A DNA stretch of 22,257 nucleotides from a virus. Positions 2 through 22,026 of the stretch are shown here, one piece after another (the first letter of the stretch is position 1; the number at the start of each line of letters is the position of its first letter). Both the position numbers and the translations under genes were made by a program. The notes below the pieces were generated by a model. It was not told where the DNA came from. It saw only the letters and a list, made by a program, of their open reading frames with translations, and did not search any database. The stretch spans positions 1 through 22,257 of IMG/VR virus record IMGVR_UViG_3300007533_000023; one strand, written 5' to 3'.

Positions 2-46
2 TACGCCGTTTCGACTGAACTGATTTCGACGATTGAGATTACCTGA
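2..46 (+). CDS. 3' end of an upstream gene (partial)
   Basis: An open frame enters from the left edge and encodes YAVSTELISTIEIT before a TGA at 44-46. That TGA overlaps the ATG of the next gene (46-48) in a TGATG junction typical of translational coupling. The next gene is a P2 gpI-type baseplate protein, so a baseplate J-like protein would be the expected neighbour by synteny. Fourteen residues cannot confirm this, and no function is assigned. Confidence 0.55.
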   Translation, partial: YAVSTELISTIEIT

Positions 47-2808
47 TGACCATTGAGAAACAGATTGTCAACAACTTGCCTGCAAGCTTGCAGGGCTATG
101 CCAATGTAAACTCCTTGTTTGGGGCGCTTGGCGAGTTCTTGGATGACATTCGTATTCAGATCGATGAGTTCGACAATCACAATGATAGTGCGCTTGTAAG
201 CGAGTCTCGTCTTGACACTTTGGCGATGAATTTCGGTGTCAACTACCCCCGCAATCTCAATCGTGAGGAAAAGCGCACCCTGATTCGGGACATCGTCAAC
301 ATCTATCGTGCCAAAGGCACGGTGCGCGCGATCAAGCACATCTTCAAGCTGGTGGGTTGGAATGTGGAGTTGGAATACGTCTGGATCGACAAGAACATCA
401 AGAAGTCCAGTTACACCTATCCAGACGACTACTATATCGGCACCGAGAAACGATATGCCACGGGCATCTATGCGGATGTGACCGACAATGCCAGCAATAT
501 ATTCACGCAGGTACGCATCTACGGCGAAGATTACCCGGCTGGCGCTCCGCAATCGACGATGGAGCTGATCAAGACACCGTACCTGAAGGTGATCGTGACC
601 GCCGAAGATTATCGGCTGTTCACCGAAGATTACGTGGCTCCCGATGGAACCGTGTATTCGTTCACGGATACGGAGAAGTTCAACATCGTACAGGACATCT
701 TCGACTTCTTCGTGGAGAAGGGACGCCCGGCCAATGTGGCAGTGATCGAGGTCATTACGCCATTCGATCTGCATGACACAATCGATACAACCACATTTGC
801 CACGGCCGAAGCCGACAACTTCGAGGACATCTCGCAGGCGTATCAGACCACGGCTCTTGATTTGACCGCCAATGGTAACCACGGCACGCTCATGGGCGGT
901 GCCCTGTGGAGTGCCGACCAACCGAATCAGAACGTGACCGGGAGCTTGTCGTTTGATGGGGTGGATGACTATGTAGCCCTGCCCGCAGCACCCTCATTCG
1001 GTGGGAGCCCTGCCGCAGCGACGATTGAGGGGCGGATGTATGTGAATGACCTCTCGGCCGATCAGAACATACTGTTCAACGTATTCGGTCAAGGGCTCTA
1101 CCCACGGATCAGTATGTTCTCTGATGGCACCATCTATGCGCAGGCGTCAATAGATGGTACCCCCATCGGTGCCTTCTCAGCAGCGGGCGTCGTGAGCACG
1201 CAGCGCTGGCATCATTTCGCGGTCGTCCTCAACGCATCCGTTTCCCCCCGCATGATTTTGTACCTCGATCTGGTGAACGTCGCTCAGAACAACGGCACGG
1301 GCACCTCATTCGATATTGGCGGCACGGCGCCCCACTTCGGATACGATGATAGTGCCGCAACGCACTTGGCCGGAAGCCTTAGTGATATTCGGGTCTGGTC
1401 TGTAGCGCGCACGCCCACGGAGCTCTCTGACAACATGAACACCCGCCTCACCGGCACCGAGTCCGGGCTGGTCGGGTACTGGCCGCTGGATGATGTGGTA
1501 CTGCCGTACGAAGGTCGGCGCTATCCGTTCGATGTGGCCGAAGCAGCCTATACCTTAGCCCATCCTTTTTGGTCCCATCCCCGTTATGTGCATGCCCCGA
1601 TAACGTTGCATTCCAATGGTGAGTACTTCTATCAGCCGGAGACGGGCGGACCGAGTACGCTGGCATATGATCTGACCGCCAATGGCAATGACGGCACGTT
1701 GATGAACGGTCCTCGTTGGAACCGGTTTGAGGGTCCGAGTGATGATCTGTTTGGGTGTTTGTCGTTCAACAATTCGGACCAAGCCGTACTTGTTGGTAAT
1801 CCCGCGTCGGTGAATTTCGGTAGTGGCGATTTTACGTTGGAGGCTTTTTTCAAGACACCGAACAATGGACAGAGTGGTCGATGGCTGTTCAATAAAGGGG
1901 ACGCTTTTGTCGGTGCTGCGGGGTATAGCTTTTTTCTCACTTCTGCGGGCACCCTTCGTGGCGCCATGTCCGACGGCACGAACAAGGTGGATATAAATGG
2001 TGGGTTGTTTGCTGATGATGCGTGGCATCGTGCGTCATTGGTTCGTTCAGGAACAACGCTGACTGTTTATGTCGATTGGACGCAGATAGTACAAGACTCC
2101 GCAGCGTCAATGGGCAGCACGGATAACGGCGTTGACCTAAGGCTTGGAGGCAACGGCGCCACTGAAAGCTTGCTCGGAGAAGGAGCAGATTTCCGGGCTT
2201 GGAACATAGCCCGCACCCAGCAGCAGATACAGGACAACATGAACACCCGCCTCACCGGCAACGAAATTGGGTTGGTCGGGTACTGGCCATTGCGCAGTCC
2301 GGGCGTTGAAGTCTTCAATACCTATCCGCTCAATTACATCCCCAAGGATGTGCCGTACGATGGCATCTTTGTGCCGACCAGCTTCCTTGATATGGGTGAT
2401 ACCTATGGACCGATCCCGGCCAGTGATAATGTGCGCGTGAAGGTGACCTGTGATCAACATACGAGGGCATATGTCTTCCGCACCGCGAACTCCCTGTATG
2501 ACATCAGTCAGGGCAATATCCAGTATCAGGTGGTGGAACTCCTGATCGGTCCCGTCGATGAGACTATCGTGACGGTCAAATATGCAACAGCCGTGGCCGT
2601 CAATTTCACCCCCAAGAATGGAGAGACCCCGGTCTATGAAGGCTCTTTTGAGGTCGGTTATCATACCGACCCAATCTTGATTGATGACTGGAATGACACA
2701 CTAGGAGATGATTGGGGAGAAGTACGTCGCTATTCGCGTTTTTACGTACCCAATTACTCGGTTGCAGATGCAGTTGACGTGACATGGGACTTTGGGACCA
2801 TCGTATAA
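46..2808 (+). CDS. Baseplate/tail protein: P2 gpI-type N-terminus plus two LamG domains
   Basis: This 920-residue protein appears to be a chimera. Residues ~1-250 resemble the P2 gpI tail protein family, with a short helical start, a conserved-looking stretch around KGTVRAIKHIFKLVGWNVE, and a beta-rich part after it; such proteins sit at the baseplate. Two concanavalin/LamG-like domains follow at ~270-480 and ~540-760. Each opens with DLTANGN(H/D)GTLM and ends with NMNTRLTG followed by GLVGYWPL. Such domains usually bind glycans, so a role in host-surface contact is likely. The ~150-residue C-terminus is beta-rich and unrecognised. The second LamG repeats parts of the first at DNA level, suggesting duplication or exchange. 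The ATG overlaps the upstream stop. The terminal TAA lies inside a late-promoter-like octamer serving the next gene. Confidence 0.75.
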   Translation: MTIEKQIVNNLPASLQGYANVNSLFGALGEFLDDIRIQIDEFDNHNDSALVSESRLDTLAMNFGVNYPRNLNREEKRTLIRDIVNIYRAKGTVRAIKHIFKLVGWNVELEYVWIDKNIKKSSYTYPDDYYIGTEKRYATGIYADVTDNASNIFTQVRIYGEDYPAGAPQSTMELIKTPYLKVIVTAEDYRLFTEDYVAPDGTVYSFTDTEKFNIVQDIFDFFVEKGRPANVAVIEVITPFDLHDTIDTTTFATAEADNFEDISQAYQTTALDLTANGNHGTLMGGALWSADQPNQNVTGSLSFDGVDDYVALPAAPSFGGSPAAATIEGRMYVNDLSADQNILFNVFGQGLYPRISMFSDGTIYAQASIDGTPIGAFSAAGVVSTQRWHHFAVVLNASVSPRMILYLDLVNVAQNNGTGTSFDIGGTAPHFGYDDSAATHLAGSLSDIRVWSVARTPTELSDNMNTRLTGTESGLVGYWPLDDVVLPYEGRRYPFDVAEAAYTLAHPFWSHPRYVHAPITLHSNGEYFYQPETGGPSTLAYDLTANGNDGTLMNGPRWNRFEGPSDDLFGCLSFNNSDQAVLVGNPASVNFGSGDFTLEAFFKTPNNGQSGRWLFNKGDAFVGAAGYSFFLTSAGTLRGAMSDGTNKVDINGGLFADDAWHRASLVRSGTTLTVYVDWTQIVQDSAASMGSTDNGVDLRLGGNGATESLLGEGADFRAWNIARTQQQIQDNMNTRLTGNEIGLVGYWPLRSPGVEVFNTYPLNYIPKDVPYDGIFVPTSFLDMGDTYGPIPASDNVRVKVTCDQHTRAYVFRTANSLYDISQGNIQYQVVELLIGPVDETIVTVKYATAVAVNFTPKNGETPVYEGSFEVGYHTDPILIDDWNDTLGDDWGEVRRYSRFYVPNYSVADAVDVTWDFGTIV
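1429..1456 (+). repeat. Direct repeat copy 1 (end of first LamG domain)
   Basis: A 28-nt stretch encoding DNMNTRLTG is identical to 2233-2260. A second shared patch (ggtcgggtactggcc) follows shortly after each copy. The two copies are about 804 nt apart, one at the end of each LamG domain. Identity at DNA level exceeds what protein conservation requires. Confidence 0.8.
2233..2260 (+). repeat. Direct repeat copy 2 (end of second LamG domain)
   Basis: Partner of 1429-1456, marking the end of the second LamG domain. A pair this long and exact could support homologous deletion or duplication of the intervening domain. Confidence 0.8.
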
Positions 2809-2811
2809 ATA
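2804..2811 (+). promoter_or_regulatory. T4-like late promoter octamer TATAAATA
   Basis: This is an exact match to the T4 late promoter octamer, which in T4 is read by the gp55 sigma factor with the gp45 clamp. It lies 22 nt before the ATG of the S74 tail fibre gene, with the RBS GGAAGGAG in between. The octamer contains the TAA stop of the preceding gene (2806-2808). Confidence 0.7.
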
Positions 2812-2833
2812 ACAGTACAACGGAAGGAGAAGT

Positions 2834-4042
2834 ATGGCTACCCGAGCAGTCCAATACAGACGCGGCACGACGACGCAGCATTCGACATTCACAGGTCTTG
2901 TGGCCGAAGTCACGGTTGATACCGACAAGAGTACCGTGGTGGTTCATGACGGTGTTACTGCGGGCGGACATCCATTGGCCTTGGAGGCCAATCTTTCCGC
3001 ACACAAGGCAAACACCGGCAACCCCCACAACGTCACCCGATCACAGTTGTCGCTGGATACAACCGATAATGTGACCTTCAACACCATTACGGCTGCGGGC
3101 GGATTGCGCACCAATTCGGGCTCTGCGCCCGATCATTGGTACGCGCAAATCGCCGATGATTCAGACACGAGCATCATTGCGGTTCAGGACAGTTCTGCTG
3201 CCGTGGTTGGTCGAGTGGCAGTAGTCGGATTGAATGGCGCCGGGGGCGCTGCCGAGTTGAACTTCACTACGTGGTCGACGGTTACTATTAATGGTAATCG
3301 TATCGTGACCGTGGCTGATTATGGCGCCGGCAACAGCCTCGACGCTGATATGCTTGATGGCCAGCATGGTTCTTACTATCGTAACGCCAGCAACATCAAT
3401 GCCGGTACACTGAATGCTGCGCGATTGCCGGCCATCCCCGACAGCCTGCTCCCCGATACCATTACATCGTCGGTACAACTTGCCACGGTGGGCGCACATA
3501 TCAATGCCGCAGCCGGTGCATTGTATAGTTATGTTGATAGTGTGCTTGGCTCGCAGACGTTCCTTACCACCGACGATCATTTCTACACTCGCGCCTCGGG
3601 TGCGGCCGACGGGGGTTGGCAACATCACTTTGACATGTTTAGCGGCGACTTCGAAGCCAAGGGTGATGTTACGGGCGGTGCCTCGGATGCGCGCCTGAAG
3701 ACGAATACGGTAGAAGTATCCGATGCCATTGCCAAGGTCATGGCGATCAAGCCGATTCATTTTGATTGGGATCGTGATGCCTGCACGGAGGCGGGGTACA
3801 AGCCGTCACGAGATCGAGATACGGGCGTGTTGGCACAACAAGTCGCCGAGGTATTGCCGGATGCAGTCTGTCCGGCCCCATTCAATCGTGATTACCTGAC
3901 GGTCCGCTATGAGCGTCTGAGTGTCCTGAACATTGGCGCGATCCAGCAACTCGTGCGCGAGAAGAAGTCACTGGAAGACAAGGTCGCATCAATGGAGAGC
4001 GAAATCGAGGCATTGAAGCAAGCGGTATTCGGAGGTAAGTAA
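2834..4042 (+). CDS. Tail fibre protein with C-terminal S74 intramolecular chaperone/autoprotease
   Basis: The protein has 402 residues. Residues ~8-45 (RRGTTTQHSTFTGLVAEV, then VVVHDG) match the short N-terminal module common to phage fibres and tropism determinants. A typical fibre linker follows (NPHNVTRSQLSLDTTDNV, ~60-80), then a repetitive shaft. The C-terminal ~120 residues form a peptidase S74 domain. It opens with SDARLK at 284-289, where Ser284 and Lys289 would be the predicted autocleavage dyad, continues through GVLAQQVAEVLPDAV and YLTVRYERL, and ends in a coiled coil (LEDKVASMESEIEALKQ). In this family the domain trimerises the fibre and then cuts itself off. A strong RBS and a late octamer precede the ATG. 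Confidence 0.85.
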   Translation: MATRAVQYRRGTTTQHSTFTGLVAEVTVDTDKSTVVVHDGVTAGGHPLALEANLSAHKANTGNPHNVTRSQLSLDTTDNVTFNTITAAGGLRTNSGSAPDHWYAQIADDSDTSIIAVQDSSAAVVGRVAVVGLNGAGGAAELNFTTWSTVTINGNRIVTVADYGAGNSLDADMLDGQHGSYYRNASNINAGTLNAARLPAIPDSLLPDTITSSVQLATVGAHINAAAGALYSYVDSVLGSQTFLTTDDHFYTRASGAADGGWQHHFDMFSGDFEAKGDVTGGASDARLKTNTVEVSDAIAKVMAIKPIHFDWDRDACTEAGYKPSRDRDTGVLAQQVAEVLPDAVCPAPFNRDYLTVRYERLSVLNIGAIQQLVREKKSLEDKVASMESEIEALKQAVFGGK

Positions 4043-4043
4043 T

Positions 4044-5105
4044 ATGGGCACTCCGCTACAGTCCTCCGGCCCCATCAGTCTGCGTGATCTCCGTTTCGAA
4101 TTCACCAGCCGTGGCGGCAACATCGCGACCGCGCCTGATACGATCATGGAGTATTACCTTGGGAGCATTCAACCGGTCTCCGGCGGGTCTGTGCCGTCTT
4201 CGGGTGCTATCTCTCTCAGCGATTTCTATGGTCTGGAACAGGTCTATGTGGTCAATCTGACCATTGGCAGCAACACGCAATCATACAACATCAAAAATGC
4301 AGCGATTGCCGCCGGATGGAACGGGGTTGATGCCGTCGAGGTCAACCTGACCATCAATGCCGGGGTCGTGGTCTATGGAAGCCATGCGGGACGGGCAACC
4401 TATGATGGACTCAATGAACATAATGGCGGCAGCGGTGGGGTTGCCATGGATACCGGGGATTTCAACGGGCTGCTGCATGGTGATATCAACATCGACATGA
4501 GCGGCACCGGAAAAATTGTCGGCGGTGGCGGTGGCGGTGGTTCCGGTTGCGAAAGTCGACGCAATAATACAGATCGTGGTGGCAACGGTGGTAACGGTGG
4601 CACCGGGTTGGTGATCCGTTCGAGCGATACGGTCAATATCACGAATGGTGGTGATCTGGCCGGTGGCGGTGGCGGTGGCGGTGGCGCTCCGGCGTACGGA
4701 GTGTCGTATGTTACCGGTAACACATGTGGCAAATTGGGCAGTGATCCGTGTGTCTACGCTGTTACAATGGACGGTTGTGGCGGTGGCGGTGGCGCTAGTT
4801 ACGCCTTGGGTGGTGGCGGTGGATATGGGGACACCGTCAGCGGTTATACCGGCTATGACGGGTCTTCCACATCGGGTGGCGCGGCACGACGAAATTCAGA
4901 CACTGATCCGAATGGTAATGTAAACTACGGCAACTACTCTGGTGCTGGAGGAGATTGGGGTGCCAATGGCGCTACCGCTCAGGACAAGGTCAATTATAGC
5001 GGCGACGACATTCCGGGTTCTGGTGGCAGTCGCGGACTGTATGTGTCCGGTTCTGCAAATCTGACCCTGAGTGGGACAACGGTGACACATGGCGCAGCAG
5101 CATAA
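4044..5105 (+). CDS. Glycine-rich tail adhesin / fibre-tip protein
   Basis: The protein has 353 residues. The N-terminus contains two copies of a short phage-fibre module, SGPISLRDLRFEF (~8-20) and SSGAISLSDFYGL (~52-64). The second half contains glycine tracts (runs of 7-8 Gly near ~157, ~207 and ~250) mixed with Asn/Ser/Thr, ending in SANLTLSGTTVTHG. Glycine-rich loops of this kind are known from receptor-binding tips such as the gp38-type adhesins of T4 relatives, so a distal host-recognition role is inferred. It starts one base after the preceding stop with an RBS (GGAGGT) inside that gene. Its end overlaps the QueC-like gene by 17 nt. The glycine codons are mostly GGT/GGC, giving low-complexity DNA prone to expansion and contraction. 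Confidence 0.65.
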   Translation: MGTPLQSSGPISLRDLRFEFTSRGGNIATAPDTIMEYYLGSIQPVSGGSVPSSGAISLSDFYGLEQVYVVNLTIGSNTQSYNIKNAAIAAGWNGVDAVEVNLTINAGVVVYGSHAGRATYDGLNEHNGGSGGVAMDTGDFNGLLHGDINIDMSGTGKIVGGGGGGGSGCESRRNNTDRGGNGGNGGTGLVIRSSDTVNITNGGDLAGGGGGGGGAPAYGVSYVTGNTCGKLGSDPCVYAVTMDGCGGGGGASYALGGGGGYGDTVSGYTGYDGSSTSGGAARRNSDTDPNGNVNYGNYSGAGGDWGANGATAQDKVNYSGDDIPGSGGSRGLYVSGSANLTLSGTTVTHGAAA

Positions 5106-5667
5106 AGATCACATCATCCTTTGGTCCGGAGGGATCAACTCCTCTGCAATGGCGCTGCGACTGGCCGAAATGTTGCCGGTCGGCACCAACCTGTACCTGT
5201 TGCATGTGTGCGACCACAACAACCCGGCGGAACGATTTCAGAAGTCCTCCTTGGAGAGCTTCCTGATGGACCTGATTGGAGATCGGAGAAATGGTTGCGT
5301 GTTTCTGGATCATGAGATCGAGATTTCGGGTTATGTGTTACCCGACACGGACTATTTGCTGTTTGGTTACGCCATGGCGCTGGAACGCCACCACATGTTG
5401 ACACCCGGGTTCGATCCAATCGTGCATTGGGCGACTTCGAAGGAGGATTGGCGGCATATCGATCAGGCTCGTATGCGCAAGCTGAAGAAGTATGTGACGC
5501 AGACCGTGCCGGTCGAGCTGTTTGGAAAGAACATCGCCAAGCGTGAGCATGTACTGACCTTGGGTTCGATGTATCAACAGGCATGGACCTGCCCGACGCC
5601 GACCGCCAATAACAAGCCCTGTCAGAAATGCGCCAAGTGTGAAATCAGGAAGAGGAGTCGTCCATGA
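5089..5667 (+). CDS. QueC-like PP-loop ATPase, copy 1
   Basis: The protein has 192 residues. The N-terminal PP-loop signature is SGGINSSA (residues 13-20), with Asn where SGGxDS families usually have Asp. The C-terminus carries a likely Zn site, Cys168, Cys178, Cys181 and Cys184 (C-x9-C-x2-C-x2-C), followed by basic residues, as in the 7-cyano-7-deazaguanine synthase QueC. QueC uses ATP to convert 7-carboxy-7-deazaguanine to preQ0; relatives adenylate and amidate other carboxylates. It is somewhat shorter than cellular QueC as I recall it (about 220-230 residues). It overlaps the adhesin gene by 17 nt and the next QueC-like gene by 4 nt (ATGA), implying translational coupling. No other deazaguanine gene is visible, so the substrate is unknown. 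Confidence 0.7.
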   Translation: MAQQHKDHIILWSGGINSSAMALRLAEMLPVGTNLYLLHVCDHNNPAERFQKSSLESFLMDLIGDRRNGCVFLDHEIEISGYVLPDTDYLLFGYAMALERHHMLTPGFDPIVHWATSKEDWRHIDQARMRKLKKYVTQTVPVELFGKNIAKREHVLTLGSMYQQAWTCPTPTANNKPCQKCAKCEIRKRSRP

Positions 5668-6215
5668 AATGCGTGATCCCATGGAGCGGCGGACCCGATA
5701 GTACGGCCTGTCTGGAATTCCATTTGAAACACACCGACCACGAGGTCATGACGTTCTACATGCGCAATACCGTTATCGATCCGACGGCACAAGCGGTCGC
5801 GATCCGTTCCATTGAAGCCTTGCGCACCACCCTTGAGTCTCGCTATCGTCCCTTCGAGTTCATTGTCGTGGATTATCGCCATTCGACCGATGTGTACTTC
5901 TACGATCATGTATTTCCGGCCTCCTACTTTCTCGATCATGGCGGCGGCATGCTGTGTCTTGGATACAACAAGGAAGATGCCGATGCGTTCGATGACAATC
6001 CGTGGAAGCTGCACCACGCCAGCAAGGAGCGCGCGTTTGCTGCGCTCGGGGTCACGGTCATACACTTCAATTGGGACAAGCCAAAGGCACAGATCAGGAA
6101 CGACTTGGGTGCGTTGTGGTCCATGACGACCAGTTGTATAACACCGGAGGATTCCGGCAAGCCTTGTGGGACCTGTTTGAAGTGCAAGGAACGACAAGCG
6201 GCAGAAGCTAAATAA
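5664..6215 (+). CDS. QueC-like PP-loop ATPase, copy 2
   Basis: The protein has 183 residues. Its PP-loop is canonical, SGGPDSTACL (residues 8-17). The C-terminal Zn-type cluster is Cys158, Cys168, Cys171 and Cys174, with the same C-x9-C-x2-C-x2-C spacing as its neighbour. A central LGYNKEDADAF segment resembles the IGxxxxD region of QueC. The two copies have diverged strongly outside the motifs, so they are either an old duplication or a heteromeric pair. The ATG overlaps the upstream stop by 4 nt. The TAA (6213-6215) lies in a late-promoter-like octamer for the next gene. A preQ0 synthase role is possible, but activation of a non-nucleobase carboxylate is equally open. Confidence 0.75.
   Translation: MKCVIPWSGGPDSTACLEFHLKHTDHEVMTFYMRNTVIDPTAQAVAIRSIEALRTTLESRYRPFEFIVVDYRHSTDVYFYDHVFPASYFLDHGGGMLCLGYNKEDADAFDDNPWKLHHASKERAFAALGVTVIHFNWDKPKAQIRNDLGALWSMTTSCITPEDSGKPCGTCLKCKERQAAEAK
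6208..6215 (+). promoter_or_regulatory. Late-promoter-like octamer CTAAATAA
   Basis: This resembles the other late octamers of the window (NTAAATAN) and lies 17 nt before the ATG at 6233, with CGGAGA as RBS between. It includes the TAA stop of the second QueC-like gene. It differs from the T4 consensus at its first and last bases, so it is less certain than 2804-2811. Confidence 0.45.
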
Positions 6216-6232
6216 GACCACGGAGAACTTGA

Positions 6233-6976
6233 ATGGCTTTAACAGAGAATTTCGACCTTTGGGCAGTAGTAGACAATGGCACGATCATGGCCATCGGCCA
6301 GATGCCGTACTTTGCCGTGGATCAGTCCACCGGCAAGCGGGTGCAGGTACGTGGCAATTATGATCCAACCGATGCTGCCGCACAGACGGAGTTGGCCACC
6401 CGGTTCAATCTGTATCCAGTATGGTCCGAGAATCGCAAAGATTTCTTTGACCCCGATCTGGAGCGGGAGATCACTCCCAATGACTATATCGACACGGACG
6501 GCAAAGTAGTCCGTCAGCATCAATATGATCTGCATCCGGACGCGCGTGCGCGCATGATCTCCAAGTTGAACTCCAAGGCGGAACGGGAGCGCATTGCCAT
6601 TGCGGCGTCCTATGGGGGCCAGATGCGCGAATATATCGAGACCGAGCGCGAGGCGTTTGCGTTCTTGGCCTTGTCCGTGGACCAGCGGGGCGCTGCGCAA
6701 CCATCCGACTGGCCATATCTCAAGTCCGGCCTTGGTAACGACAAGACGGAGACGGGCGCAATGGTGACTACGCTGGAAGAGGAGGCACGAGTAGTGAAGT
6801 TGCGCTCGCAGCAATGGCGTGGGGCGCTCGTCACCGTGCGCGATGCCCGCAAGAAGGCGCTGGCCCTGATTGAATTTGCCGACACGGACGCACAGGCGTT
6901 ACAATCCTACTATCGTGCGTTCTCGAACCACAATCAGGCGATGTTCAGTTCGATAGAGCGCGCGAACTTCATTTAA
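6233..6976 (+). CDS. Unrecognised protein in the tail-fibre region
   Basis: This 247-residue protein has no family I recognise. It has no signal peptide or membrane segment. The N-terminal half (to ~100) is mixed alpha/beta with a WAVVDNGTIMAIGQ start of the kind seen in some tail-fibre assembly chaperones. The second half (~100-247) is mostly helical and charged, with EEEARVVKLRSQQWRG and RDARKKALALIEF. Its position downstream of the adhesin and the QueC-like pair, behind its own late-like octamer, suggests late expression. A tail-fibre chaperone is possible but unproven. Confidence 0.6.
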   Translation: MALTENFDLWAVVDNGTIMAIGQMPYFAVDQSTGKRVQVRGNYDPTDAAAQTELATRFNLYPVWSENRKDFFDPDLEREITPNDYIDTDGKVVRQHQYDLHPDARARMISKLNSKAERERIAIAASYGGQMREYIETEREAFAFLALSVDQRGAAQPSDWPYLKSGLGNDKTETGAMVTTLEEEARVVKLRSQQWRGALVTVRDARKKALALIEFADTDAQALQSYYRAFSNHNQAMFSSIERANFI

Positions 6977-6996
6977 TCAAAAAGGGAAGTCCCCGC

Positions 6997-7998
6997 ATGC
7001 GTCTCTTGCTTGCGTTCGTTGCTGTGTTGCTGTCGTTCTCGGCCGGCGCGACCGATTCATTGATTGTCTATACTTGGGGTGGTGCCTATGAACAGGCACA
7101 GCGTGAGACGGCTTTCAAGCCGTTCTCCCGGGAGTTTGGAATACCCATCGTGACGGCCACGGCCAACAACTTGCTTGCCAAGGTGAAGGCGGAGACGGAG
7201 CAGGGACGATCTTCACTCGATATCGCCGATATGAATGTCGCGCAGGCGATCAATGGCTGTGACGAGGGGCTGTTACGCCGGGTCGGTCGGCTTTTCAATC
7301 CAGACGATTATGTGCCCGGTGCAGTCTTCCCGTGTGGCGTGGCACAGAACATTTGGGCACAGGCCATCATCGTGCGACCAGACGAGACCTCGATCCGGTC
7401 TGCCAAGGATTTCTTCGATCCCTCGATTCCCGGCAAACGTGGACTTCGCAAGTGGCCTCGGGTGACCTTGGAGATGGCCCTGCTCGGCGCCGGAGTCCCC
7501 AAAGATCACATCTATGATGTGTTGAAGACCGATGCCGGGCTGCAATTGGCCTTTGACACGATCCGGGGGATCAAGGATCGCATCATCTGGTGGGGGTTGG
7601 GGGCACAATCGGCCAAGTTGATTGCCAATCGGGAAGTGGTGGCGTCCACGGGATTCACCGGACGCATTCTCAATCTGCGCAAAAACGAGGGACTGCGGGA
7701 CACGAAGATTCTGTGGAATGCACATGAACGCGGGTTTTCCGTCTGGACCATCCCCAAGAACAACCCCCATCCGAAGCTGGCACTCCAATTACTGCGCTTT
7801 GCCACGGGACCGCGCAATCTGCGGATGAATGACGTGTCGGCCTATGCCTCGGTGCGCGCGCATCAGGCCAATACCAATCCCGACCTGCCCACCTATCCCG
7901 CCAACATGAGACAGGGCATCGCGGAGGACGGGGAGTTTTGGGCAGAGTATGGACCCGAGATCAGTCGGAAGTTTTCGGCGTTCCTCTCCGGACTCTAA
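6997..7998 (+). CDS. PotD-like periplasmic solute-binding protein
   Basis: The protein has 333 residues. A clear signal peptide covers residues 1-18 (MRLLLAFVAVLLSFSAGA), with cleavage predicted before TDSLIVYTWGG. The mature protein looks like the spermidine/putrescine-type ABC substrate-binding family (PotD/PotF, COG0687). It opens with YTWGGAYEQAQRETAFKPF, then LDIADMNVAQAINGCDEGLL, with a WWGLGAQSAKLI segment near the second lobe and a C-terminal YGPEISRKFSAFL helix. In bacteria such proteins capture polyamines or related ligands in the periplasm and pass them to a permease. No permease or ATPase gene is nearby. An RBS (AGGGAAG) precedes the ATG. It ends 7 nt from the end of the convergent minus-strand gene. 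It could be a host-derived metabolic gene or a repurposed virion or receptor-related protein. Confidence 0.75.
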   Translation: MRLLLAFVAVLLSFSAGATDSLIVYTWGGAYEQAQRETAFKPFSREFGIPIVTATANNLLAKVKAETEQGRSSLDIADMNVAQAINGCDEGLLRRVGRLFNPDDYVPGAVFPCGVAQNIWAQAIIVRPDETSIRSAKDFFDPSIPGKRGLRKWPRVTLEMALLGAGVPKDHIYDVLKTDAGLQLAFDTIRGIKDRIIWWGLGAQSAKLIANREVVASTGFTGRILNLRKNEGLRDTKILWNAHERGFSVWTIPKNNPHPKLALQLLRFATGPRNLRMNDVSAYASVRAHQANTNPDLPTYPANMRQGIAEDGEFWAEYGPEISRKFSAFLSGL

Positions 7999-8929: not shown

Positions 8930-10511
8930 AGACCGAATCGTTAAAGGGGTCTGTTTCTCCGCCGAATATGATCGGCATTGGGGTATGTGAGAGGGAATCC
9001 TCCTCTTCGTCCTGTAGATGGATGTTGTTCAGCAGGTCGTACACGGACTCCTCGTAGTGGGCGAGTAGATCAAGCATGTTGCAAAACAGGACGCAGGCCA
9101 TGGTGAGGTCGTCATGGCCCTCGCCCCTGCCACGTTCGGACGCAAACGATGCCCCGGACTTGACGAAGAACTTCAGTTCCGTGAGCAGACGCTTCGAATG
9201 CAGCTTCAGCTTCCACCCCTCGACCAAATCCTTCAACAACATGCACCCCCGTGCCTTGCTCGCGGTGTTGGTCGGGATGCCCTTCTTGCGGTGCTTGATG
9301 TCGCTCACCATTATGGCGTGATTGAGCGCACTGTCATCGCTGTTGATCAGGAGATTGATTACCCCCATTCCAATACTGTTGTTCTCCACCGTGTAGTAGA
9401 TTTCCTTCGCACCACTGTTGTGGATCATGCGGATCACATTGATGATCACGTGCGTGAACTGCGTCTGCGTCATGACGTTGTTACGCCATTCTCCCAACTG
9501 TTCCATGCCATCGATATCGAAAATCTGGATCGCATGGAAGTCCTTGCCGACGCCTTCTCCCACGTCACAACATATCGCCACGGTCTTGTTCCTGAAGTCG
9601 CCGAACAGTAACAGATCGTCGTTACTGCCTGAAATGGGTTCCTTCGGTCGAATGGATTCCAACACAGTGGAATTGACCAGCGTGGACTTGGAACTCAGGA
9701 AGGCACCCTCATATTCCTGCATGTACTTCTCATAGGTCATCTTGCGAAGCATTTCCCGCTTGAAGTTCGCGTCGCGTCCCGGGATGCGGTCGGGATAGAC
9801 CTTGTACTCCTTGAATCCATTGTCTCCATTGACCGCGCCAAACCACAACCTCGCATACTGCCCCTCTGTACCGTTCGGGGTCGAGGCGATGATGATCTGT
9901 GTCTTGGCGGAATCCTCGCCTGCGGCCGAGATGACTGGCAGAATCGAGGTCCAGAACTCCTCGGCGATCACCGGTTTCACGTGCGCGAACTCGTCGAGAA
10001 ACAGCTTGGTCATCGAGCGGCCACGGAAGGTAGACTCGGTCGTGGTCGCCCCTTCAATCGATGAGTGATTGACCGCAAAGCTGATCTTGAACTTGGAGTA
10101 CTCGGTCACTGGCGGTTTCAACCACCATGGCAGGTTCTCATAGGAATACCGGATGCGTCCCATGATGTCCTTGACATTGATTTGGCGGTTGGAAGTGATG
10201 CCGATGGTCTCATTCGGTGTAAAGATGGCCGCATGCAGCAAAAAGCCGATGCTGCTCGACGTCTTTCCGCTCTGACGCGGCAGGTTCATGATGAGGAATC
10301 GGTACTCTTCCATCAGGTCCAGCATCTCTTGCTGATAGTCACGGGGATGAAACAGGACCGCGCCGTCGGACGGATGCTGCACGTACAGGTATTTGCGCAT
10401 GAAGTATTCGCGATCATTGGCGCATTTGACAAACTCCATGGCCTGTTCGCGTGTGAGGTCTTCCTCGTCCTGCGGCCGTTTGACGACCTTGTTGTAATCA
10501 GGTGTGAACAT
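8928..10511 (-). CDS. terL: Terminase large subunit, T4 gp17 type
   Basis: From the ATG at 10511 the protein has 527 residues and holds all parts of a headful-packaging motor. The N-terminal ATPase has the adenine/RDYQ region (~57-61), Walker A PRQSGKT (78-84), Walker B LFLDE with Asp173 and Glu174, and the coupling motif ASTPNG. The C-terminal RNase H-like nuclease has acidic residues in CCDVGEG (~330), TVEN and GHDDLTMA. It cuts concatemeric DNA and pumps it into the prohead. The frame stays open upstream to 10622, with an alternative ATG at 10562. I chose 10511 because the sequence after it already covers the gp17 domains, and the upstream extension reads through the divergent palindrome. 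Confidence 0.93.
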   Translation of the reverse strand: MFTPDYNKVVKRPQDEEDLTREQAMEFVKCANDREYFMRKYLYVQHPSDGAVLFHPRDYQQEMLDLMEEYRFLIMNLPRQSGKTSSSIGFLLHAAIFTPNETIGITSNRQINVKDIMGRIRYSYENLPWWLKPPVTEYSKFKISFAVNHSSIEGATTTESTFRGRSMTKLFLDEFAHVKPVIAEEFWTSILPVISAAGEDSAKTQIIIASTPNGTEGQYARLWFGAVNGDNGFKEYKVYPDRIPGRDANFKREMLRKMTYEKYMQEYEGAFLSSKSTLVNSTVLESIRPKEPISGSNDDLLLFGDFRNKTVAICCDVGEGVGKDFHAIQIFDIDGMEQLGEWRNNVMTQTQFTHVIINVIRMIHNSGAKEIYYTVENNSIGMGVINLLINSDDSALNHAIMVSDIKHRKKGIPTNTASKARGCMLLKDLVEGWKLKLHSKRLLTELKFFVKSGASFASERGRGEGHDDLTMACVLFCNMLDLLAHYEESVYDLLNNIHLQDEEEDSLSHTPMPIIFGGETDPFNDSV

Positions 10512-10513
10512 GT

Positions 10514-10537
10514 CCCTATTTAGTCGCCTAAATAGGG
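10514..10537. promoter_or_regulatory. Perfect palindrome carrying two divergent late-promoter-like octamers
   Basis: A 10-bp arm CCCTATTTAG (10514-10523), a 4-nt loop TCGC and the exact reverse complement CTAAATAGGG (10528-10537) lie between the divergent terminase and protease genes. Each strand therefore reads CTAAATAG toward its own gene. The octamers end 4 nt from the ATGs at 10511 (minus) and 10540 (plus). By T4 spacing, transcription would begin at or next to each start codon. It could also be a hairpin or an operator. Confidence 0.6.
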
Positions 10538-10539
10538 GT

Positions 10540-11286
10540 ATGAAAACTTTCGGTTTTGCCATTTCAATTGCGCTTCTCTTTGTGACCGTGGCTCTGGCAA
10601 CCCTTGTGCTGGATTCACACATCCATCCAAGCTATGATCGGATCATGAACGAGACCGTGTACGTCGGTCTCTACGATGATATGGGACGAGAATTGGGACA
10701 TGGCTCTGGCGTATTGACTGACGCGGGCATCTTCACGGCCGCACACGTGATTCTCACGGGTGAAGATGGGGATCATGCGAAGCCGCAGAAGAACATTCTG
10801 GTGCGCTTCAGTGACGGGCGATTCGTGCGCGCGGAGATCGTCACCTACGAGTACGATCTGGTTCGAGGATTGGGATTGGCCAAGCACGACTTTGCCCTGC
10901 TGCGAATACCGAAACGTGTGGCAGACCAGTACCCGAAGGCGACCTTCTCTTGTTCATCCGATCCAGACGTAGGGGATCGACTCTATGTTTCCGGTAGTCC
11001 ATTGGGACTGCGATGGATTGTCACCCAAGGACGCGCATTGACCACGTATCGTCAGAAGCGCGGGCTTTCATCTTTTGGCATTACCGACGCCATCGTGGCC
11101 GGGGGTGTCTCGGGGGGACCGGTTTTTGATCGTTTCGGACGAGTGGTGGGACTGATCGAGGGCTACATGCTCAATCGCCTGTCGGGCGGATTCTCACCAT
11201 CCATATCCAATGCCGGCTACACGATCTATACGAGGATGTCGTTGATCTGTTCGGAGGTCATGATCCATCATTCCTCTGTTTCCTGA
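10540..11286 (+). CDS. Trypsin-like serine protease with N-terminal membrane anchor or signal
   Basis: The protein has 248 residues from the ATG at 10540. Residues 1-24 (MKTFGFAISIALLFVTVALA and on) form a signal peptide or single membrane anchor, so the enzyme should act in the periplasm. The chymotrypsin-fold triad is complete: His69 in FTAAH, Asp117 in KHDFALLRI and Ser191 in GGVSGGPVFD. The frame also offers a GTG at 10504 and an ATG at 10510, the latter with a good RBS (AGGTG) and sharing CATG with the terminase start. The later start gives the cleanest signal sequence. Its last 29 nt overlap the convergent o-spanin gene. Possible jobs are envelope damage, degradation of host periplasmic defences or superinfection exclusion. 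It is unlike the T4 gp21 prohead protease, which is cytoplasmic. Confidence 0.8.
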   Translation: MKTFGFAISIALLFVTVALATLVLDSHIHPSYDRIMNETVYVGLYDDMGRELGHGSGVLTDAGIFTAAHVILTGEDGDHAKPQKNILVRFSDGRFVRAEIVTYEYDLVRGLGLAKHDFALLRIPKRVADQYPKATFSCSSDPDVGDRLYVSGSPLGLRWIVTQGRALTTYRQKRGLSSFGITDAIVAGGVSGGPVFDRFGRVVGLIEGYMLNRLSGGFSPSISNAGYTIYTRMSLICSEVMIHHSSVS

Positions 11287-19576: not shown

Positions 19577-20170
19577 ATGACAACCAAACCAACACTGATC
19601 GGTATTTGCGGACCCGCTCGTTCGGGAAAGGACACTTGCGCCAACGCACTGGTAGAGCAACTTCACTTTCATCGATACTCGTTTGCCGATCCACTGAAAC
19701 GGGCTGCACAAGAGATGTTCGGCCTTACCGACGAGCAGACATGGAGTGATGAGTACAAGGACGAGGTAAATCCGTTTTGGGGTATTACCCATCGAGAGAT
19801 GTTCCAGAAGTTGGGGACCGAAGGTGGCCGGCAGTTGTTCTTCACGGACATATGGGTTCGACGTGCCACATTGCAGTTGTCGCGCGCAATCGGTTTCGGG
19901 TACAACCGTTTCGTGATTCCGGACATACGCTTCGATAATGAGGCCGACTGGCTCCATGATTTCGGAGGCACCCTGTTCTACGTCGAGCGTCCAGACCTCG
20001 AACACATCAAGCATTCCTCTCATGCCAGTGAGAACTCCTTGGACATGGCCAATGTTGATGAGATCATTCTAAACGACAACACCAGATACGACTTGCAGAA
20101 CCAGATTGTTGCGGCCGTGTCTGATATAATCGACAGCGTACTTTCGGATTCCCTCCCCCTTGGAACGTGA
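19577..20170 (+). CDS. Deoxynucleoside monophosphate kinase, T4 gp1 type
   Basis: The protein has 197 residues. The P-loop GPARSGKD (12-19) is followed by YSFADPLKRAAQEMFGL (~36-52), a hallmark of the T4 gene 1 family, then WGITHREMFQKLGTEGGRQ and VIPDIRFDNEADWL, and a C-terminal HSSHASENSLDM and DNT segment. The enzyme phosphorylates dNMPs (in T4 dTMP, dGMP and hydroxymethyl-dCMP) to dNDPs for replication. Whether this phage uses a modified cytosine cannot be told from the window. Its stop lies just before the next ATG (TGATATG). Confidence 0.85.
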   Translation: MTTKPTLIGICGPARSGKDTCANALVEQLHFHRYSFADPLKRAAQEMFGLTDEQTWSDEYKDEVNPFWGITHREMFQKLGTEGGRQLFFTDIWVRRATLQLSRAIGFGYNRFVIPDIRFDNEADWLHDFGGTLFYVERPDLEHIKHSSHASENSLDMANVDEIILNDNTRYDLQNQIVAAVSDIIDSVLSDSLPLGT

Positions 20171-20171
20171 T

Positions 20172-20759
20172 ATGCCCTACTACGACAAGGAGCGACTACG
20201 GTACCTCCACCATTCGGGGGATTCGACCGTGGGCTTTCATGGTGCGGTTGATACGCTGCTTCGAACGGGACATCCACCGAAGCACGCAATCCATGGCAAT
20301 CCACGGCACTATTGGCCGCATACGGTCGTTGTTCAGTACAATCGAAAGTATGTGGGTGAATCAAAACTTGAATTGAAAGCGCAGTTTCCGAACCCCGACC
20401 CCATCAATTGGAACCATTCGGACGGGGACGTGGAGCGATTCGTGCGCCTGTTTCGCGGCACTCCCCGATTCTCTGCATACCCGGATCGTGAGGCCGCAAG
20501 CGACCGGTTTGAACTGGAGTTTGATTTTTTCGAACGAAACCAATACATCCTGTTTCTTGTCTCGCTCCATGACCTGATCCAGCAGTTCAAACGGGACAAC
20601 GTCATTTGGGGGGTGGGGAGAGGCAGTTCATGTGCCAGCTTCATCCTGTACTGCCTCGAAGTCCATGACATCGATCCCATCGAGTTCGATATCCCCTTCA
20701 AGGAACTTTCCAAAGAAACAGAACACGAGGAACCACAACAACATGACCACAACACATGA
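20172..20759 (+). CDS. Stand-alone protein carrying a fragment of the DNA polymerase III alpha (DnaE) palm
   Basis: The protein has 195 residues from the ATG at 20172 (RBS GGAA); a TTG at 20160 is also in frame. Residues ~113-180 match the DnaE/PolC segment that ends in the triphosphate-binding GRGS. The visible pieces are ILFLVSLHDLIQQFK, then GVGRGSSCASFILY (147-160), then DIDPIEFDIPF. In cellular enzymes the catalytic PDxDxDF motif comes right after this; here the protein stops. No PHP domain, second catalytic aspartate, fingers or clamp-binding part is present, so it cannot be a polymerase alone. The first ~110 residues are unrecognised. It could bind nucleotides or act as a decoy or replisome modulator. 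It overlaps the GroES-like gene by 17 nt. Confidence 0.65.
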   Translation: MPYYDKERLRYLHHSGDSTVGFHGAVDTLLRTGHPPKHAIHGNPRHYWPHTVVVQYNRKYVGESKLELKAQFPNPDPINWNHSDGDVERFVRLFRGTPRFSAYPDREAASDRFELEFDFFERNQYILFLVSLHDLIQQFKRDNVIWGVGRGSSCASFILYCLEVHDIDPIEFDIPFKELSKETEHEEPQQHDHNT

Positions 20760-21030: not shown

Positions 21031-21715
21031 GACCCCCCCAATCAGCCCGACGGTGCTATGGCAGACACACCAAGAGCTTGCCCGTATATATGCCAACCAC
21101 AAACTGCATGCGCCGAATGAGGTCTATTGCCGGGACGATGATCGGGACACCCGGATCGTCACGATCCACACCATGCCGATGGGAAAATTCCTGAAGGGAC
21201 GTGGGGCTGACACCGATTTTTGTGTCTCTTTGACGCAGCTCTTTCTTCAATTGTACGGGGTCCCACAAGCATTGGCATATACAGACCCGTTGCGGGTCGA
21301 CCTGAAATTCGATCTGCGGGCCGATGTCATGAGTGTAGCCGGGGGTGCAGACATGAAAGAGTTCTTCGATGGAATCGACACGACCACCTCCGGCATCATC
21401 CGTGGCCAGATACATTCGGACCTGAACCATTTCAGTTTCTTGCATGTGGACCGAAACCTGCGCGAGGATTTCCAGATCATGTATGACCCCTGCTTCCTCA
21501 TGGAGATGGAGCCGTCACCCCCGGCTAAACCATTGCTTACAAGTCCGTCGATCACACCAGCGAGGCACACGGAGTCGAGCCTGTTGTACAACAAAATTCG
21601 AGAAGCAGTAAAATACCGGAACTACTGGCCGTTGCTCCTGTTCTGTGTCGATGATCAGGGCACTGTTATCGGATGGGAAGACGGCCAGTACCTCAGTTCA
21701 TTTGCCGAGCTATAA
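21023..21715 (+). CDS. Unrecognised protein before the PAAR gene
   Basis: This protein has 230 residues from the ATG at 21023, which overlaps the GroES-like stop by 8 nt; a TTG one codon earlier is possible. It is soluble and mixed alpha/beta, with MGKFLKGRGADTDF (~54-67), VDLKFDLRADVMSV (~94-107), HSDLNHFSFLHVDRNLREDF (~132-151), and a proline-rich linker (EPSPPAKPLLTSPSITPAR) to a C-terminal ~40-residue part. No family is recognised. Its TAA lies in the late octamer that precedes PAAR, so it ends the early/middle module. Confidence 0.6.
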   Translation: MVETPPISPTVLWQTHQELARIYANHKLHAPNEVYCRDDDRDTRIVTIHTMPMGKFLKGRGADTDFCVSLTQLFLQLYGVPQALAYTDPLRVDLKFDLRADVMSVAGGADMKEFFDGIDTTTSGIIRGQIHSDLNHFSFLHVDRNLREDFQIMYDPCFLMEMEPSPPAKPLLTSPSITPARHTESSLLYNKIREAVKYRNYWPLLLFCVDDQGTVIGWEDGQYLSSFAEL

Positions 21716-21718
21716 ATA
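21711..21718 (+). promoter_or_regulatory. T4-like late promoter octamer TATAAATA
   Basis: An exact T4 late octamer ends 5 nt before the PAAR ATG (21724). It includes the TAA stop of the preceding gene (21713-21715). By T4 spacing the transcript would start at or next to the ATG, giving a leaderless or nearly leaderless message. Confidence 0.65.
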
Positions 21719-21723
21719 CCCCC

Positions 21724-22026
21724 ATGGCTGGATCAGGCAATGCAAGAGCAGGCGACATCGCGACCGGAATCTGCCCCGCGCACAAACACCCGCAGCACTA
21801 TTCGGCGGTTATCACAGGCGTATCTCCGACTGTGGTACTCGAATCGGCCGGCGCATCATTTATTGGTTCTGTTGCTATTGCTAGCTGCGGCCATCCTGTT
21901 GTTGTCATTTCCGGTTCTGGCACAGTGCTTGTTAATGGTGCCGGTGCTGGACGAATCGGTGACATAGGGACCAATCCCGGCCCCTGTGTCATCCAGACCG
22001 GCGCACAGACCGTAATCTCAGGATAG
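21724..22026 (+). CDS. PAAR-domain tail-spike tip protein
   Basis: The protein has 100 residues. It is a PAAR-type protein that caps the central spike, as gp5.4 does in T4, sharpening the tip for membrane piercing. Evidence is the repeated small beta pattern, the GAGAGRIGDIG segment and Cys/His residues suited to bind the apical metal (CPAHKH near 17-22, CGH near 55-57, and a Cys near 88). The frame is open upstream to 21673 within the previous gene, but the ATG at 21724 gives the usual short PAAR start (MAGSGNARAGDIATG). Confidence 0.8.
   Translation: MAGSGNARAGDIATGICPAHKHPQHYSAVITGVSPTVVLESAGASFIGSVAIASCGHPVVVISGSGTVLVNGAGAGRIGDIGTNPGPCVIQTGAQTVISG

Follow-up and report, generated by a model that had tools for sequence, protein, structure and literature searches.

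Recent work showed that enzymes related to QueC can modify the N-terminus of a protein in bacterial immunity. Cap9 of type IV CBASS, a protein of about 185 aa representing the minimal QueC fold, joins a deazaguanine to a protein N-terminus. QatC of the qatABCD system, with ~400 aa and large extensions at both ends, works together with a partner in which the N-terminal MGTS is essential (PMC13279940). For preQ0 synthesis by Escherichia coli QueC, the motifs YxQxHxxE and VPxRN are both required, the zinc motif of the canonical enzyme being C-x8-C-x2-C-x2-C (PMC13329287), and the Tyr and Asp of the QueC YPDC motif serve deazaguanine recognition (PMC13279940, PMC13329287). Phages carry many QueC singletons (PHROG 1550, including Muddy gp16, Det7 gp140 and members in SFP10 and ECML-4), in which a compact PP-loop ATPase is combined with a C-terminal four-Cys zinc motif in genomes with no linked deazaguanine pathway; Hutinet et al. 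(2019) set these singletons, that of Muddy included, apart as a probably unrelated subgroup (PMC6884629).

In the window, that is, the whole virus fragment of 22,257 bases to which coverage of this genome extends, two QueC-like genes stand side by side among tail genes, an arrangement that is real and somewhat surprising, within a known, unexplained family. The pair resembles the phage singletons in its compact PP-loop ATPase, its C-terminal four-Cys motif and its lack of a linked deazaguanine pathway, but differs from them in its tandem copies, in the altered ATP loop of one copy, in the coupling to a glycine-rich tail gene and in the late-promoter motif ahead of the block. Genes of UvsX and UvsW type were identified in the fragment by their RecA and helicase domains. 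Its terminase is T4-like, with the best phage match in Alishewanella phage Slickus01 (46.6% identity), and the phage is assigned to the T4-like group. The features of the block are:

2804–2811, + strand: T4-type late-promoter motif TATAAATA, located 23 nt ahead of the fibre gene and presumed to drive the block 2834–7998
2834–4042, + strand: tail fibre with an Mtd_N domain (Pfam, 5.8e-13) and an S74 intramolecular chaperone (Peptidase_S74, 9.4e-13); matches PHROG tail fibre families
4044–5105, + strand: glycine-rich tail protein (MGTPLQSSGPISL...), 353 aa, 24% Gly, positioned after the S74 fibre; probable adhesin and candidate substrate
5089–5667, + strand: QueC-like protein 1 (copy 1), 192 aa, SGGINS (Pfam QueC, PHROG 1550, model); probable degenerate or regulatory partner
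5664–6215, + strand: QueC-like protein 2 (copy 2), 183 aa, SGGPDS (Pfam QueC, model, structure matches); probable catalytic subunit
6233–6976, + strand: 247-aa protein of the same block; weak match to PHROG 32459 only (E 0.006)
6997–7998, + strand: solute-binding-protein-like product with a signal-peptide-like N-terminus (Pfam SBP_bac_8, 1.8e-20), last gene of the block; no match in the phage-record search

All genes of this block run in the same direction and are joined by overlaps or by gaps of at most 26 nt. The two PP-loop genes had been noted as adjacent and as overlapping each other and the glycine-rich gene, which was confirmed from the ORFs and the sequence, with 17 nt between the glycine-rich gene and copy 1 and 4 nt (ATGA) between the two copies. 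A clear ribosome-binding site precedes copy 2 (GAGGAG), and none is obvious for copy 1, which fits translational coupling of the latter to the upstream glycine-rich gene. The codon-position GC of both genes resembles the values of their neighbours, so that both appear to be coding and not obviously recent arrivals. The window has two exact copies of the T4 late-promoter consensus, where shuffled sequences would give 0.12, and five ATAAATA cores for an expectation of 0.76, each shortly upstream of a gene (2804, 8922, 14378, 16351 and 21711); these five sites are useful for annotating this phage. Since the motif at 2804 heads a block of single direction, and no second such motif follows on the + strand up to 7998, late transcription of the QueC-like pair together with the tail genes, as the original prediction had it, is well supported by the signals read from the sequence.

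Both proteins pass the Pfam QueC (PF06508) cut-off of 22 bits, copy 1 with 24.5 and copy 2 with 36.0 bits, mostly via the C-terminal zinc region, and both match PHROG 1550 ('QueC-like queuosine biosynthesis') with partial coverage (E 1.2e-6 and 3.2e-11, respectively), which makes the family assignment more than chance. Profile A6, a model in which both copies were included, groups them with the phage set, and we assign both to the known, unexplained phage QueC singletons. The identical spacing C-x9-C-x2-C-x2-C noticed at the outset was confirmed at C168/178/181/184 in copy 1 and C158/168/171/174 in copy 2, whereas canonical QueC has C-x8-C and Cap9 C-x7-C at the first interval. Similarity between the copies is weak (E 8e-7, 28% over 61 aa), and the idea that copy 2 arose from copy 1 by recent duplication was rejected, since copy 2 matches the relative at locus L052 (1e-15) better than it matches copy 1 (about 1e-6). 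With canonical QueC (3bl5, 2pg3) the pair has the fold, the zinc Cys set and, in copy 2, SGGxDS in common, but the NCBIfam QueC equivalog TIGR00364 gives the copies 11.3 and 15.9 bits, far below its cut-off of 150.3, and YxQxHxxE and VPxRN are absent at the aligned places in both. Because the equivalog cut-off is missed by far and two of the three substrate motifs are absent, neither copy is taken to be a canonical QueC.

The QueC-type PP-loop fold and the resemblance to Cap9 that had been suspected were both borne out by predicted structures and their matches to solved ones. The model of copy 2, built with an alignment of 15 phage sequences, is confident (pLDDT 86.7, pTM 0.85), and its closest solved fold is Cap9 (9nto; Z 18.3, 2.5 Å over 164 residues), followed by Bacillus subtilis QueC (Z 15.9), QatC (9y01; Z 15.3), with which it has the QueC core in common, and other PP-loop enzymes (Z at most 14.8), the margin of Cap9 over QueC reflecting in part the compact size of Cap9, matched by the 183 aa of copy 2. 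The copy 1 model is weaker (pLDDT 70.7), with Cap9 (Z 12.6) and QueC (Z 12.3) tied, and in sequence-profile comparison the phage family matches QueC (7.5e-14) better than Cap9 (1.5e-8).

A Cap9-like fold, together with the altered ATP loop of copy 1, would suit a role in counter-defence, in which the pair mimics Cap9 or QatC and binds their protein substrates, the tails of CD-NTases or QatB, with copy 1 as a dead decoy; QatB and the CBASS CD-NTases are recognised through flexible MG-type N-termini (PMC13279940). Such a role seems improbable: late expression would come at the wrong time against an early sensor, the sequence match of copy 2 to Cap9 is distant (E 0.0084) and copy 1 has none, no close relation to QatC was seen, and no positive evidence for action against CBASS or Qat was found. 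In contrast to Cap9, to which copy 2 is 18% identical, the pair keeps the Y/F-x-Q(x)5-E, RN and YxDC signatures incompletely, and it has tail genes for neighbours, with no CD-NTase, type IV CBASS gene or Cap10/TGT nearby. Both copies are also far shorter than QatC, neither matches the PADLOC QatC model, and no qatA, qatB or qatD lies near the pair.

The two copies differ in the ATP loop SGGxDS, which is intact in copy 2 (SGGPDS) and altered in copy 1 (SGGINS, Asn for Asp). In alignments, copy 2 also retains all four Cys, the conserved Lys and part of the P-x-x-x-x-K region. When its G-Y-N-K-E-D-A-D-A-F-D-D-N is set by inspection, ungapped, against G-V-C-E-T-D-F-S-G-Y-P-D-C of QueC, F109-x-D111 falls on the YPDC position, with N for C; copy 1 is without both residues. 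F-x-D is also present in Muddy gp16 (ADAFDD) and in the L007 protein (FFD), but its absence from the L052 protein, the closest homologue of copy 2, and from copy 1 ruled it out as common to the whole phage family. Since copy 1 lacks the loop Asp and the aromatic-x-Asp pair, a catalytic and a degenerate protein is the natural reading of the pair, with copy 1 probably the degenerate partner, in line with the earlier suggestion of one degenerate site. Small chaperone genes often follow fibre genes, and this general pattern, along with the degenerate state of copy 1, would also agree with a non-enzymatic PP-loop fold that acts in fibre assembly or as a fibre chaperone. We give this a low probability: the ATP loop and four Cys kept in copy 2 would be needless in a scaffold, and SGGxDS is kept as well in Muddy gp16 and in the L007, L051, L052 and L064 proteins.

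Among the window ORFs scanned there are no other deazaguanine genes, queD, queE and folE included, as the original prediction had claimed. Profile searches for FolE (PF01227), QueD (PF01242) and TGT/DpdA (PF01702), the three families covered, in which positive controls gave signal, gave no hit in the complete Slickus01, Muddy and PIS136 genomes or in carrier contigs of 79–267 kb. That carriers of relatives, two complete genomes among them, have no QueD, FolE or TGT-family gene is a new observation, and the absence of these genes agrees with the separation made by Hutinet et al. (2019) (PMC6884629). Ordinary 7-deazaguanine modification of DNA, with the remaining pathway elsewhere in the genome, would accord with the placement of the pair in the Pfam QueC family and with the incomplete genome, 22,257 of probably about 140 kb as judged from the related Slickus01. 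It had been said to fit this locus poorly, and we likewise find it very unlikely, given the equivalog scores, the absent substrate motifs, the lack of pathway genes in the scanned ORFs and in the carriers and related genomes searched, the setting apart of the singletons and the late promoter ahead of the block.

Relatives were found by DNA patterns on the Cys motif and on IPWSGGxDST, and the sample is small and pattern-selected. Within it, structural operons of several unrelated phages contain short QueC-like relatives, a recurrence that is new. At L064 the gene directly follows a fibre gene with a 4-nt overlap; at L051 it comes after a Gly-rich fibre gene and one small gene, and genes for a TctC-type solute-binding protein, the neck and the terminase come next; at L052 it overlaps TerS, and at L007 it lies just after the portal. 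In PIS136 it is downstream of the virion genes PIS_019 and PIS_017 and upstream of an adjoining ATP-grasp ligase gene. In Muddy it is gp16, lying between the genes for the major tail protein and those for tail chaperones; a suspected order with it beside the fibre gene gp24 was not found. The closest relatives of copy 2 in the sampled set are those of L052, L007 and L051, and copy 2 is in turn the best match of the L051 protein. A solute-binding-type gene stands downstream of the QueC-like genes both in the window (SBP_bac_8) and at L051 (TctC, directly after).

A conserved adhesin-QueC-QueC order, which the original prediction had put up for survey, was not found in the other phages sampled; these have single QueC-like genes next to fibre or structural genes, plus one tandem of another family. 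The latter (L059, 4329–6725) consists of two DUF6395 QueC-like genes between a lambda-type terminase and the portal, and resembles the pair in its adjacent copies, one with an altered loop (SAGADS beside SGGVDS), but its two proteins, each of about 380 aa, share 49% identity and belong to a different Pfam family. An alanine-dehydrogenase-like gene follows this tandem. Most QueC-like genes of Ackermannviridae and phiKZ-like phages are placed outside tail clusters, so a tail position is not a property of the whole family, and members in several large phages likewise lie away from virion operons. In the marine T4-like loci L013, L018, L028 and L031, the QueC-like gene has an SGGxEC loop and is coupled to a radical-SAM-like gene; the neighbourhood also has GNAT-like and carbamoyltransferase-like genes, all three of these neighbours being named from sequence alone.

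Wider searches added little: tblastn with both copies against 50,697 phage records gave no match, peptide-pattern scans of viral contigs (single copies or a two-row alignment) confirmed nothing, and a scan of GTDB genomes returned only two trivial Cys-motif matches, in one MAG. The terminase probe found no loci as a single protein and 32 T4-like loci (25–37% identity) as a two-row alignment; none of the 32 carries a QueC-like gene within the flanks covered, which makes the pair accessory.

The pair could be auxiliary metabolic cargo whose target is a tRNA or small molecule (nucleotide, cofactor or nitrile/amide chemistry), placed in a spot downstream of the fibres. PHROG classes the family as auxiliary/host-takeover, many members are in early or metabolic regions, and a solute-binding-like gene lies downstream of the pair in the block. 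Moreover, the fibre-terminase interval is a cargo spot in Pelagibacter phage Mosig, so the adjacency of pair and tail may reflect insertion rather than function. Because this region collects such genes, oxygenases and haem genes among them, in other T4-like phages, cargo metabolism stays a serious rival, possible though doubtful in view of the late promoter, the tight coupling to a tail gene and the recurrence of short members among virion genes in unrelated phages. Both counter-defence and DNA modification have a lower likelihood.

The glycine-rich product gave no match in the Pfam scan, and its sole phage match is short, to a hypothetical protein of a Limnohabitans phage, so that 'adhesin' is a putative label. 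Its start, MGTP, parallels the N-terminal Gly of QatB (MGTS) and of the CBASS CD-NTase (MGGS) (PMC13279940), and Gly directly follows Met in 2.8% of 863 ORFs from the sampled loci. The second-residue Gly had been proposed as the mark of a substrate, but its conservation found no support: the neighbouring virion genes start MTI/MAH at L051, MSV at L064 and MTA in Muddy. Unusual as it is, Gly2 therefore carries little weight. Gly/Glu-rich C-termini occur in the Muddy major tail protein (L074, 1053–1694; GGGGEGEGEGE) and in PIS_019 (L068, 2397–4199; GEGEGEGGEGGEG), a protein capsid-like by inspection; their nearness to QueC-like genes may be chance in these GC-rich genomes.

Our preferred reading, held tentatively and with less than even confidence, is that the pair forms a PP-loop ligase of two QueC-like subunits, made late, whose substrate would most likely be a virion protein. 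The analysis shows how the genes are arranged, the late-promoter motif, the fold, the intact and altered ATP loops and the repeated occurrence of short QueC-like genes in structural operons; catalysis, pairing, substrate and chemistry we infer. Copy 2, like QueC and Cap9, would activate a carboxylate by ATP-dependent adenylation to form an amide, copy 1 would be its degenerate partner, and the substrate would come from the same transcript, the glycine-rich tail protein being the first candidate; the tail would then carry a small-molecule adduct, perhaps of deazaguanine type. A virion-protein modifier is the best reading because the enzyme is probably amide-forming and ATP-dependent, late, and placed in a tail block. 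It is supported by the fold of copy 2, nearest to a protein-modifying enzyme, by its retained SGGPDS, Lys, four Cys and F109-x-D111, by the short relatives in virion operons (L064, L051, Muddy, L052, L007 and PIS136), and by L059 as a second, independent tandem with one altered loop, between terminase and portal; the structural-operon relatives and the carriers without QueD, FolE or TGT favour it over DNA modification. It is weakened by the lack of YxQxHxxE and VPxRN in copy 2, the missing F-x-D in its closest homologue, the position of most Ackermannviridae and phiKZ-like members outside tail clusters, and a Gly2 not common to neighbours. The more specific proposal, in which an active/degenerate pair attaches a deazaguanine or a related carboxylate covalently to a tail protein as a recurrent and hitherto unrecognised step in late phage assembly, is rather unlikely. 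Literature searches yielded no usable report on enzymes that modify tail fibres. With short members present in virion operons, that of the tractable mycobacteriophage Muddy included, a direct test on tail-protein mass is possible; an adduct would reveal a new layer of phage tail chemistry, and otherwise the family would point to metabolism.

Other features were observed in the window. At 46–4042, a 920-aa Tail_P2_I protein with Laminin_G_3 domains is followed by the fibre starting with Mtd_N, a domain also described in the Bordetella phage tropism determinant. The gene at 10504–11286 encodes a trypsin-like serine protease (Trypsin_2, 7e-22) and overlaps the start of the opposite-strand terminase by up to 119 nt, and a 199-aa ORF (20160–20759) holds only a partial DNA polymerase III alpha NTPase domain (3.6e-13), as a short stand-alone fragment. 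A PAAR-like protein (21673–22026), scoring 26.1 bits, just under the cut-off of 27, is likely a tail-spike tip and lies beside a late-promoter motif.
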